Of a DNA stretch of 64,000 nt, positions 8,150 through 60,085 are shown piece after piece. The DNA is from Mammaliicoccus sciuri (GTDB taxonomy: Bacteria > Bacillota > Bacilli > Staphylococcales > Staphylococcaceae): the NCBI RefSeq assembly GCF_025561425.1, contig NZ_CP094824.1, positions 1,054,001 to 1,118,000 on the forward strand, written 5' to 3'. Positions within the stretch are counted from its first letter, which is position 1, and every line of letters starts with the position of its first letter. The translations under genes and the position numbers were made by a program. The notes beneath the pieces were generated by a model. It saw only the letters and a list, made by a program, of their open reading frames with translations, was not told where the DNA came from and did not search any database.

Positions 8150-8235
8150 TGAGATCGTCCGAGTCGTGGCTTAAGTGTTGAATAAAGCCAAGAGATCGCT
8201 GAAGTCGTGGCTTAAGTGTTGAATAAAGCCAAGAG
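8150..8235. repeat. Two 41-bp hairpin repeats (family A), cut by an IS
   Basis: Two near-identical 41-bp units. Each contains the stem TGGCTT / AAGCCA (8167-8172 with 8185-8190, and 8208-8213 with 8226-8231) around the loop AAGTGTTGAATA. After the second unit only the first bases of a possible third copy (AAGAG) remain before the insertion element starts at 8236. Function unknown. Confidence 0.75.
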
Positions 8236-8264
8236 TGTACTGAACCCAAAAATCTAAACCTTAA

Positions 8265-16810: not shown

Positions 16811-16829
16811 GTATTTTTAGAAATATGGG

Positions 16830-16990
16830 TCTGAATATTGCAAGTGAGGTGTGACAAGCAATGTTGGAAGTCTGAATATTGCAAGTGAGGCGTGACAAGC
16901 AATGTTCAGGACTTAGTATTTATCAAGACTGCCCAAACAAGATAAATATGAGCCTCATATATTGCAAGACTCCCTAAACAAGCAACATAG
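16830..16990. repeat. Series of four hairpins with constant 16-base loops (family B)
   Basis: Fills most of the gap between the convergent camS and putP genes. Two units repeat with a 41-bp period (stem AATATTGC / GCAATGTT, loop AAGTGAGGYGTGACAA). A third has stem GTATTTATC / GATAAATAT with loop AAGACTGCCCAAACAA. A fourth has stem TATATTGC / GCAACATA with loop AAGACTCCCTAAACAA. Loops keep 16 bases, starting AAG and ending CAA, while stems differ but mostly still pair. Confidence 0.7.
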
Positions 16991-23733: not shown

Positions 23734-23745
23734 TAAATATTATGA

Positions 23746-23787
23746 AAATCTCGTCACAGAGTGAAGTACTCGTGACGAGATTTTTTT
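23746..23787 (+). terminator. Terminator after gatB
   Basis: Perfect 12-bp stem AAATCTCGTCAC / GTGACGAGATTT followed by TTTT. Confidence 0.9.
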
Positions 23788-23811: not shown

Positions 23812-23967
23812 GTTAGGGACATAATTCTGAGAAATGTCCGTAAGAGAGCGTGCATTCTAATTACCAGAATTCGAAATAATGGAAGTTAGCCGACTCTAAT
23901 TACCAGAATTCGAAATAATGGAAGTTAGCCGACTCTAATTACCAGAATTCAGAATAATGGAAGATAC
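23812..23967. repeat. Array of four 33-nt hairpins with 13-base loops (family C)
   Basis: Each unit is a 10-base arm, a 13-base loop and a 10-base arm: 23812-23844 (GTTAGGGACA / TGTCCGTAAG, loop TAATTCTGAGAAA), 23857-23889 and 23896-23928 (CTAATTACCA / TGGAAGTTAG, loop GAATTCGAAATAA), and 23935-23967 (same left arm, decayed right arm, loop GAATTCAGAATAA). The last three are tandem with a 39-bp period. A fifth copy is at 49060-49092. The gene-free stretch 23734-24084 otherwise holds only the gatB terminator and a promoter. Confidence 0.75.
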
Positions 23968-24084: not shown

Positions 24085-25547
24085 ATGACACAAATTAAAA
24101 TAGCTAAAAATGAAAATGAAATCAATTTAGAATTAGGCCAAGCTAATAGACATGGCTTGATTGCTGGTGCTACTGGTACTGGTAAAACAATTACTTTAAA
24201 AGTATTGGCTGAACAATTTTCTAAAGCTGGTGTTCCAGTCTTTATGTCAGATGTTAAAGGGGACATCTCAAGTATTGCAGAGGCTGGCTCTATCAATGAT
24301 AAGATTCAAGAACGTATTGATATGATGAAAATTGACGATTACAAAAATAATGCTTTTCCTGTAACATTGTTTGATGTATTTCAAAAAACGGGTGTACCTG
24401 TTCGTACAACGATCACAGAAATGGGTCCGCTATTAATCGGTAAATTATTAGATTTAAATAATACTCAATTAGGTGTGTTAGATATTGTATTTAAAGTTGC
24501 TGATGAAAATGGTCTGCTTCTGATTGATATGAAAGATTTAAAGCACTCTTAAAAGAAATTAATGAAAACAGAGCAGAGTATGCTGAAAAGTACGGTAATA
24601 TTTCTTCTGCATCAATTGGTGCAATTCAACGTGCATTATTAAGATTAGAATCTGAAGGTGCTGAAACATTCTTCGGAGAACCTGCTTTACAATTAGAAGA
24701 TTTTATTAAGTTTGATGATTCAGGCTGAGGAATGATCAATGTTCTTGATACACCTGTTTTATATCAAAAGCCTAAATTATATGCAACGTTCTTATTATGG
24801 TTATTATCTGAGCTCTTTGAAAGTCTTCCAGAAGTAGGCGATCCTGAAAAACCAAAAATTGTCTTCTTCTTTGACGAAGCACATCTTTTATTTAATGACA
24901 GTTCAAAAGAGTTAATTGAAAAAGTTGAACAAGTTGTACGTTTAATCCGTTCTAAAGGTGTAGGTATTTATTTCGTAACTCAAAATCCAATTGATATTCC
25001 AGAATCAGTGCTTGGACAACTAGGTAATAGAGTACAACATGCACTTAGAAGTTACACACCTAAAGATCAGAAAGCAATTAAAAGTGCTGCACAAACTTTC
25101 CGTCAAAATGAAAGCTTCGACACTGCTCAAGTAATCGGAGAATTGAAAACAGGGGAAGCGTTGATTTCATTCTTAAATGATGATGGCCAACCGAATGTTG
25201 TTGAACGTGCATTTATTCGTCCACCTGAAAGTAAAATTGGTGTAATCGATGAATCTGTTAAAAAAGATTTAATAGAAAATGCGCCATTAAATGAAACGTA
25301 TAAAGAAACATTTGATCGTGAAAGTGCATATGAAATGTTACAAAATAAAATTGAAAAACAACCTGAAGAAGAACCTGAAGAAGAACCAAAAACTAAGAAA
25401 TCACAGTCAACTAAGAAAGAAACAACATCTAAAAAGAAAGAAAAACCTTCACAATTCCAAAAAGAAGCGACTAAGTTCTTATCAACAGTTGGAAGACAAA
25501 TTGGTAGAGAAATCGTACGTAATATATTTGGAACGAAAAGACGCTAA
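24085..25547 (+). pseudogene. Broken HerA-like/DUF853 ATPase (YjgR family)
   Basis: Two ORFs together cover a nearly whole P-loop ATPase of the HerA-FtsK class: Walker A AGATGTGKT (residues 31-39) in the first, Walker [12 protein letters not shown] in the second, and a Lys/Glu-rich C-terminal tail. Two lesions separate them. An A-tract at 24540-24542 is one base short (DLKAL becomes DLKHS then stop). A sense codon is TGA at 24726-24728 in an otherwise intact stretch (KFDDSG, stop, GMINVLD). The 60 codons between the lesions read well in the restored frame. Function of the family is unclear. Otherwise well-kept sequence suggests recent inactivation or sequencing error. Confidence 0.85.
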
Positions 25548-49059: not shown

Positions 49060-49092
49060 GTTAGGGACAGAATTCCGAGAAATGTCCGTAAC
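49060..49092. repeat. Fifth family C hairpin (33 nt)
   Basis: GTTAGGGACA / TGTCCGTAAC around the 13-base loop GAATTCCGAGAAA. Same stem as the unit at 23812-23844, 25 kb away, with a slightly different loop and a right arm whose last base restores pairing. The rest of the gap 49036-49187 shows nothing else clear. Confidence 0.75.
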
Positions 49093-58322: not shown

Positions 58323-60085
58323 ATGATTAAAAGGTATTTACAATTCGTAAAACCATACAAATGGCATATTGTAGGTACGATTATCATTGGAATTTTAAAA
58401 TTTGGTATCCCGTTATTACTTCCATTACTGATTAAATATGTAATCGATGATGTAATTAATAATGGCGCACTATCAATTGGAGAAAAAACAGAAAAATTAA
58501 CATATGCAATGTTAATTATGGGATTCATATTTGTTGTACTAAGACCACCTATAGAATATTTCAGACAATATTTAGCACAATGGACATCTAATAAAATTCT
58601 GTATGATATTCGTAAAAAATTATACACTCACTTACAGGCATTAAGTTCAAGATTTTATGCGAATAATAAAGCAGGGGAAGTTATATCAAGAGTGATTAAT
58701 GACGTTGAACAAACTAAAGACTTTATCCTTACAGGACTTATGAAGGTTTGGTTAGATTTAGTGACAATCGTCATCGCATTAAGTATTATGTTTGTTTTAG
58801 ATATTAAATTAACATTTACGGCAATTGCGATTTTCCCAGTATTTATATTTAGTATTTATTACTTCTTCGGAAAATTACGAAGTTTAACGAGAAGAAGATC
58901 GCAAAGTTTAGCAGAACTTCAAGGATTTCTTCATGAACGTGTTTCAGGGATGTCTGTTATAAAAAGTTTTGCTATAGAAAAAAATGAAGAAAAACGATTT
59001 GATAAAAGGAACCAAAACTTCTTAACTAAAGCAACCAAAACTTCTTAACTAAAGCAACTGATCATACGAAATGGAATGCCAAATCATTTGCAGTTATTAA
59101 TACAGTTACAGATATTGGTCCGTTATTGGTAGTAGGTATCGGTGGTTTTCTTGTTATTCAAGGGAATTTAACTGTTGGGACATTAGCAGCATTTGTAGCA
59201 TATCTTGAACAGTTATACGGACCTTTAAGAAGATTGGTTTCATCATCTACAACTTTAACGCAAAGTATCGCTTCAATGGACAGAGTATTTCATTTGTTTG
59301 ATGAAAAATATGATGTCAAAAATGAAGATGACGCACAAGACATTGTCATTAAAGAAGGGCACATTACGTTTAATGACGTATCATTTAAATATAATGATTA
59401 TGAAGATGAAGTGCTTAAACATATTAACTTAGATATTAATAAAGGTGAAACGGTCGCATTTGTAGGTATGAGTGGTGGCGGTAAATCAACACTTATTAGT
59501 TTACTGCCTAGATTCTATGATGTGACAAAAGGTTGCATTAGTATTGATAATCATAACGTTAAAGATTTCACAACTGAAAGCCTAAGAAATCAAGTTGGTA
59601 TGGTTGAACAAGATAATATTTTATTCTCTGATTCTATTAAAGAAAATATTTTATTAGGTAAACCAGATGCATCTGACGAAGAAGTTATAGAGGCAAGTAA
59701 AAAAGCGAATGCACATGACTTTATTATGTCATTACCAAATGGTTATGATACAGAAGTCGGCGAACGTGGTGTGAAATTATCAGGTGGACAAAAGCAAAGA
59801 GTTTCTATTGCGAGAATATTCTTGAATAACCCTCCTGTATTAGTACTTGGTGAAGCGACGAGTGCACTTGATTTAGAAAGTGAAAAAATCATCCAAGATG
59901 CGCTTGAAATATTAAGTACTGAAAGAACGACTTTAATAGTTGCGCATAGATTATCAACGATTACACATGCAGATAAAATAGTTGTTATTCAAAATGGACA
60001 AATTGAAGAAGTTGGTTCACACAAAGAATTAATGGCAGCACAAGGAAGTTATTACAACTTATATAATATTCAATCGTTCGGGTAA
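58323..60085 (+). pseudogene. Broken Sav1866-type multidrug ABC exporter
   Basis: A half-transporter with membrane and ATPase domains on one chain, split by a frameshift. The first ORF (58323-59048, 241 residues) holds four or five of six helices. The rest (59126-60085) has the last helices and an ATPase domain with GMSGGGKST and LSGGQKQR. The break is a 23-bp exact tandem duplication (59010-59032 and 59033-59055). Removing one copy restores the frame through [12 protein letters not shown]. The Walker B aspartate is also replaced: [12 protein letters not shown] instead of LDEATSALD. Its neighbours are ntdP upstream and the GltS-like gene downstream. Confidence 0.88.
59010..59055 (+). repeat. 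23-bp tandem duplication inside the ABC exporter gene
   Basis: Two identical 23-bp copies beginning AACCAAAACTTC and ending ACTAAAGC, directly adjacent. As 23 is not a multiple of three, it shifts the frame and gives a TAA eight codons into the second reading. Confidence 0.95.

Follow-up and report, generated by a model that had tools for sequence, protein, structure and literature searches.

The hairpins that follow gatB in Mammaliicoccus sciuri belong to an intergenic repeat family of several Mammaliicoccus species, in which 33-nt units with 10-base arms and a 13-base loop stand in tandem and, in M. sciuri, mostly as a block of A units followed by a block of B units that have a different stem.

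The hairpin family and its array grammar

The window, a 64-kb stretch (G000:C1:1054001-1118000) of the 2.92 Mb single-contig genome G000, contains all five 10-13-10 units that an earlier note on this DNA had reported (Table 1). Four of them form the 23812-23967 array, flanked by gatB (with its terminator) and by the gene of a HerA-like ATPase. Judged by a protein encoded nearby, the nearest named relative is M. sciuri (95%). The stems of that note needed correction: TGTCCGTAAC belongs to the 49060 unit only, the 23812 unit ends in TGTCCGTAAG, and the fourth unit ends in TGGAAGATAC rather than TGGAAGTTAG. Its "one mismatch and at most one G-T" describes three of the five units, but the 23812 unit has two mismatches (positions 1 and 5) and the fourth unit has three together with one G-T. 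The HerA-like ATPase gene (PF05872; window 24085-25547) is split into two open frames of 155 and 271 aa, while three relatives (L029, L030, L031) have an unbroken frame of 482-488 codons; the split may be a genuine break or a sequencing error. Two further tandem repeats of the window (8162-8244 and 16829-16906), with a 41-bp period and short internal inverted repeats, are by eye unlike the hairpin family in sequence, and at 59005-59058 a 23-bp unit, not a multiple of three, is repeated 2.3 times in a frame that looks coding by eye.

Table 1. Hairpin units of the window with the neighboring terminator, junction and linkers (window positions)
Feature	Position	Strand	Description	Basis
Intrinsic terminator of gatB, immediately ahead of the array	23745..23784	+	Perfect 13-bp hairpin, then T-run	Inverted repeat I1
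A unit	23812..23844	+	10-13-10 hairpin, GTTAGGGACA / TGTCCGTAAG	Sequence reading
A/B junction	23845..23856	+	12 nt; 38 of the 41 junctions in G000 and G003 measure 10-12 nt	
B unit 1	23857..23889	+	CTAATTACCA / TGGAAGTTAG	Sequence reading
B linker	23890..23895	+	6 nt	Repeat parsing
B unit 2	23896..23928	+	Same sequence as B unit 1	
B linker	23929..23934	+	6 nt	Repeat parsing
B unit 3	23935..23967	+	Right arm TGGAAGATAC, three mismatches	
Lone A unit	49060..49092	+	Between convergent genes	Sequence reading

Further copies were brought in by the covariance-model search that had been suggested, and the family goes beyond chance. A DNA search with the window region gave 34 match rows in G000, the window's own included, and the covariance model of the unit (R1), for which 150 of 2854 candidates were scored, gave at least 131 rows at E ≤ 0.05, although many rows represent the two strands of one near-palindromic unit; on these numbers chance hairpins were rejected as an explanation. 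From 20 fetched loci and the window, 86 units of G000 were parsed, each assigned to the nearer consensus: 37 A units (GTTAGGGACA-GAATTCCGAGAAA-TGTCCGTAAG) and 49 B units (CTAATTACCA-GAATTCAGAATAA-TGGAAGTTAG). The two stems of the window, which might have proved unrelated, are those of one family, and more species bring more pairing stems. Two units at G000:C1:777281-777400 (L059), whose stem (GTTAGTAACA/TGTAACTAAG) and loop both differ, are possibly a far relative; they score too low and stand outside all counts.

Matches of R1 are present in five of eight Mammaliicoccus genomes (G000; G003, taken as M. sciuri; G001, taken as M. fleurettii; G004 and G005), the other three being without any match. 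At E ≤ 1e-4 five of 108 Staphylococcaceae genomes, all Mammaliicoccus, gave matches, in runs with at most 66 candidates scored per genome and stricter filters at which weak matches are lost; the other genome searches scored at most 150 candidates per genome, and the unit counts are lower bounds. A looser model, R2, added four genomes of other genera at one place each (E 1.5e-4 to 0.0066); two of these four weak lone matches lie on both strands, and one of the four, L101, is on reading a lone palindrome. A plasmid or phage origin was rejected, because no match was found among 72,556 plasmid records, among 50,697 phage records, or in IMG/VR with one exact pattern. Rfam gave no match at gathering score in the window. 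Word searches of the literature retrieved nothing on this repeat, no paper was found with its 16-letter stretches, and a 12-letter stretch occurred in eight papers, which by their titles treat unrelated, non-bacterial subjects.

The grammar of the arrays was read from 67 arrays with 341 units (27 arrays from G000, 20 from G003, 4 from G001, 12 from G004 and 4 from G005), a sample that falls short of all arrays in the genomes, most markedly in G001, G003 and G005; L029 and L063 were excluded as duplicates of L076 and L100, the flanks of L029 and L076 being identical. Where single hairpins had been proposed, the set is an array of an A block and a B block, and in uniform arrays the arms pair equally well across the linkers. 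Among the 47 arrays of G000 and G003, an A block is followed by a B block in 41, only A units are present in 6, and the two types are never interleaved. The linkers in these two genomes are 7 nt between A units in 73 of 75 cases and 6 nt between B units in all 39, and the commoner A/B junctions contain GAGCGCC; all linkers of G004 (74/74) and G005 (14/14) are 6 nt. For L024, L055 and four G001 arrays, the orientation was assigned manually by following the A units. A second profile reads L024 and L055 in the opposite direction, and in L056 the B unit gives a better match when reversed. An enclosing stem like that of the window array (ATGGTGGCGT/ACACCACCAT) was rejected as a general feature, since other arrays are not above control. 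No terminal inverted repeats above control are shared by the 25-nt ends of 59 arrays (G000, G003, G004), and no constant flank was seen by reading.

Pairing and covariation of the stems

The earlier note had argued that the stems change while their pairing is kept. Several paired inner triplets among the 341 units agree with this, namely GGA/TCC (167), TAC/GTA (14), GAG/CTC (14) and GAT/ATC (1), but TAC/GAA, the most frequent triplet of B (44 units), is paired at two of its three positions and the G001 triplet GAG/CCA (15 units) at one. In alignment A4, composed of 58 of 71 representatives (13 odd ones excluded) and three consensus-type units, 77.7% of positions pair compared to 69.1% after shuffling of the 3' letters, and the covariation score is 0.270 compared to 0.140; none of 500 shuffles reached either value, fractions that are not probabilities since the units are related by descent. 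Slid partners gave 29.5-40.3% pairing, and the covariation score is above all slid controls as well. For all 71 representatives, 536 of 710 cells are paired against a shuffle mean of 480, a value reached by none of 2000 shuffles. Two of five measures (pairs changed on both sides, and further pair types) were not above shuffles, and in the first unit set much of the covariation signal was the single A-to-B difference. All four Watson-Crick pairs occur between positions 8 and 26 (in 31, 8, 8 and 4 of the 61 units), and T2, A4, C9, A10, A13, T14, C16, A19, T24, G25, T30 and A32 are conserved in at least 90% of the 61. None of the 341 units has a perfect Watson-Crick stem, and 11 have ten of ten pairs when G-T is allowed. 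Mismatches of a base with itself (G-G and C-C) are frequent at positions 1 and 5. Two arrays, at 1735 kb and 822 kb, look as if both arms had been exchanged. Selection on structure, one of the explanations offered before, and templated copying of an arm look alike here.

Folded as single-stranded DNA, the A unit (z -2.45), the G004 stem (z -3.23) and the G005 stem (z -4.23) are below their shuffles, the complement of A only slightly so (z -0.99), and those of B and G001 show no better folding than their shuffles do (z 0.03 and 0.67). Arms that pair across a linker enclose a loop of 6-7 nt, and such pairing is as good as that within the unit in uniform arrays: among 232 comparisons the own arm was better in 28, the arm of the next unit in 23, and 181 were ties, while at A/B junctions own-unit pairing was favored in 40 of 41. 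On the loop-defined strand G-T exceeds A-C, 182 compared to 100 cells (eight extra G001 loci were used in this count only); by distinct stems the difference is weak, 111 compared to 91, and a strand rule was therefore rejected. The whole window array, folded as RNA, is below shuffles on both strands (z -3.5 and -4.0), with a predicted fold that pairs between units and does not use the B hairpins.

Genomic sites and the composite element of G005

Counterparts among the 20 fetched G003 arrays were found for 19 of the 27 G000 arrays, 14 by both flanks and five by one. The number of units differs at 11 of the 14 sites with both flanks matched, for example 1 versus at least 10, 2 versus 12, or 8 versus 1. 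At the 49060 site the window has one A unit, M. sciuri L071 has at least 10 A units (with a run of N inside), and G004 (L100) has 12 units of another stem type. One site is common to G004 and one to G001, with flank identity of 70-91%. The gatB site holds A-A-B in M. sciuri and one A plus six units of stem CTAAGGAGCA/TGCCAGTTAG in M. fleurettii; in M. stepanovicii no units were found there. At the window site the likeness between units of G000 and G001 is 0.68, compared to 0.87 and 0.86 within species; in a second comparison the units of one site gave 0.78 between species, and those of other sites within species 0.89 and 0.81. Units of one site thus differ more between species than units within a species do, which implies concerted change or replacement. 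Within the M. sciuri clade, we saw no site that is filled in one genome and empty in another.

The arrays of G000 lie between convergent genes in 15 cases, tandem genes in 10 and divergent genes in two. This convergent share exceeds that of the window gaps of at least 40 nt (9 of 46, Fisher p 0.002; the 46 include the gap that holds the 49060 array, and the ORFs are mechanical); a background that includes array flanks (2/34 convergent, with a much smaller p) is biased and the window's 9/46 was used instead. In G004, 7 of 12 arrays are convergent (p 0.009). A terminator-like site is present within 300 nt of 25 of 27 arrays in G000, 20 of 20 in G003 and 12 of 12 in G004, counts that have no background rate beside them. 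For the 15 convergent G000 arrays, such a site would stop transcripts before they reach the array from the left in 8 cases, from the right in 9 and from both sides in only 3, and 11 arrays have one beyond the array, so that many arrays may be transcribed. Arrays often begin shortly past a stop codon, and in tandem-gene contexts they run along the genes in 10 cases and against them in 13 (the duplicate L029 included). The A-to-B direction agrees with that of replication, as judged from dif and dnaA, in 20 of 27 G000 arrays (p 0.019) and in 13 of the 15 convergent ones; as a general rule replication polarity was rejected, since G004 agrees in only 5 of 12.

In G005 the arrays are part of a composite. 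We fetched 36 loci of this genome (16 by units and 20 by module 2; L064-L067, L105-L116, L125-L144), of which 32 contain a 92-nt module, module 2, preceded by the array; a terminator-like module 1 stands ahead in 20 of the 32. The stem types of these arrays are CTAAGGAGCA/TGCTCGTTAG and CTAACGGTCA/TGGTCGTTAG, besides longer units; those with the stem CTAACTAGC/GCTAGTTAG (L128, L138, L141) occupy the same position in the composite as the 33-nt units. Module 2 is a separate repeat family: with 40 of its 103 candidates in G005 scored, it has at least 40 places there, and it matches seven of the eight genus genomes, among them two of the three that lack arrays. Relative to module 2, one array type points one way at seven loci and the other way at one. 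Direct repeats of 18-52 nt are found on both sides of 13 of the 32 composites and score higher than any of the 992 controls with mismatched flanks, whose maximum is 16. Of these 13 repeats, 12 are complete terminator-like hairpins, unique to each site. The other 19 composites have no direct repeats above control, none above the 95% control level flank the arrays of G000 (27), G003 (20), G004 (12) or G001 (4), and no empty site was seen in G005. The repeats could be target duplications, or the terminator could have been duplicated by another route. We consider it possible, and propose only tentatively, that the G005 array is the inside of a mobile element inserting at intrinsic terminators with duplication of the whole target terminator hairpin. 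If this were true, the length of the target duplication would vary with the hairpin that is duplicated (24-52 nt in 12 cases), the enzyme would cut at both feet of a hairpin or cruciform, the 33-nt hairpins would be its recognition or capture substrate, and the arrays of M. sciuri would be settled descendants. A narrow literature search found no precedent in print for insertion with duplication of a whole terminator.

Origin of the family and its likeness to known repeats

The family probably consists of non-autonomous intergenic repeats that work like the pneumococcal BOX elements. Because one A unit with one B unit is the smallest form that is common, we take as the founding element of the M. 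sciuri clade a twin hairpin of about 77 nt, A and B separated by a junction of about 11 nt. A trans-acting enzyme would have dispersed its copies in the past. At each site, either block would grow and shrink by slippage or unequal recombination of the 39-40 bp units, which would underlie the observed differences in copy number, and concerted evolution or replacement may account for the likeness of units within a species. As pairing is kept while stems change, the single-stranded hairpin is most likely what a copying or mobilizing machinery would recognize. The arrays may stand at convergent gene ends near terminators because they are tolerated there, or because terminators are targeted, as the composites of G005 suggest. 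No candidate mobilizing enzyme was found, and no Y1 transposase is common to the carriers: PF01797 occurs in G000 only and in none of the other four carrier genomes. This IS200-type transposase has nine places in G000 and none in the seven other genus genomes.

BOX elements (boxA-boxB(n)-boxC) of S. pneumoniae and S. suis, for which the authors argue a parasitic nature, are composite intergenic repeats with tandem middle modules of variable number, as are the arrays here (11 of 14 sites vary), and both show an excess between convergent genes (here 15/27 compared to 9/46); about half of the BOX insertions are core and BOX moved in trans, if at all, which we list as a likeness, and the S. suis variants that keep boxB with other end modules may be compared with modules 1 and 2 of G005 (PMC3049150). 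The statement of the earlier note that no described element has this form is therefore too strong as to the kind of element. The differences are that 59 arrays of G000, G003 and G004 have no shared end modules, while G005 has its own ends, and that two hairpin blocks are present instead of one, with stems that change between blocks and species. The likeness is one of build, set by description rather than by comparison with BOX sequence, and membership is not claimed.

REP, BIME and REPIN elements likewise consist of short, imperfect hairpins in intergenic DNA; many lie at 3' ends, and paired hairpins form a unit, but REPs alternate in orientation within BIMEs (PMC3733652; PMC2817692), whereas the units here are direct. 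Neither a constant GTAG nor a constant CGTC foot was found by reading the units and linkers; some B variants have GTAG inside the right arm and not at the hairpin foot. A REP mobilized by a Y1 (RAYT-type) transposase was accordingly rejected, as PF01797 is present in only one of five carriers and the GTAG foot is missing. STAR elements share with the family that they are staphylococcal intergenic direct repeats of variable copy number with species-specific locations (PMC3532100). That paper does not use the terms hairpin or secondary structure, and STAR was rejected because the window has no exact copy of the 14-bp consensus and one match with two mismatches, where chance gives 1.3. Sta-1 to Sta-4 and Efa-1 are dispersed, mostly intergenic stem-loops, Efa-1 being an adjacent stem-loop pair; they are set apart by description as elements of S. 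aureus and E. faecalis (PMC2267715). IS1272 uses inverted repeats as targets but is an insertion sequence with a transposase, reported to act without target duplication (PMC5678879), while some G005 composites have whole-hairpin direct repeats. From MITEs the family differs in that 59 arrays of G000, G003 and G004 have no terminal inverted repeats; as to target site duplication, a MITE trait, nothing exceeds control in G000, G003, G004 and G001, and direct repeats are present at 13 of 32 G005 composites.

Of the other explanations, we regard as unlikely that the arrays are DNA structures useful to the host in the manner of BIMEs, where they would buffer supercoils or collisions or bind a chromosome protein able to recognize the imperfect palindrome. 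It would fit the convergent excess, the terminator-like sites near nearly all arrays of G000, G003 and G004 (for which there is no background rate), the sites common to G004 and G001, and the agreement with replication in G000, its convergent arrays included; however, three of eight genus genomes have no match, one site ranges from 1 to at least 10 units, the direction in G004 agrees with replication in only 5 of 12 arrays, and a tolerated parasite predicts the convergent excess too, as has been argued for BOX (PMC3049150).

Template switching at quasi-palindromes is a route of templated arm copying, and neutral tandem repeats whose arms are complementary through such copying and tandem homogenization, with no selection on structure, would explain the G-G and C-C mismatches at positions 1 and 5, the exchanged arms, the equal pairing across linkers, and the two of five stem types that fold no better than shuffles. 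We hold this unlikely as well: perfect arms would be expected, yet none of the 341 units (which are related, not independent) is fully Watson-Crick, and geometry and loop outlast several stem changes. That the hairpins act in RNA, at transcript 3' ends where they would stabilize, cut or terminate mRNA, appears improbable. Array starts close behind stop codons, the few convergent arrays shielded on both sides and the 11 with a terminator beyond, the RNA folding of the window array and the excess of G-T argue for it; terminator-like sites before the array at about half of the convergent ends (left 8/15, right 9/15) and before the window array itself, a predicted fold between units instead of B hairpins, the small G-T excess by distinct stems, and tandem contexts without preference for the gene strand argue against it. 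Double-stranded sites of a dimeric protein, spaced 39-40 bp, would agree with the nearly invariant and roughly symmetric positions (at least 90% of 61 units), but two stems in one genome and the co-changing positions 6-8 are hard to reconcile with one protein, and this explanation we find very improbable.

Read as BOX-like, the family is new as a repeat so far from one genus with an unusually strict grammar. Its most novel point is the whole-terminator direct repeats of G005, and if these were true target duplications, the mechanism of insertion would be one for which the narrow literature search found no precedent. The turnover of the stems can be traced from species to species, so that the family lends itself to asking whether hairpins stay paired through their structure or through templated copying.
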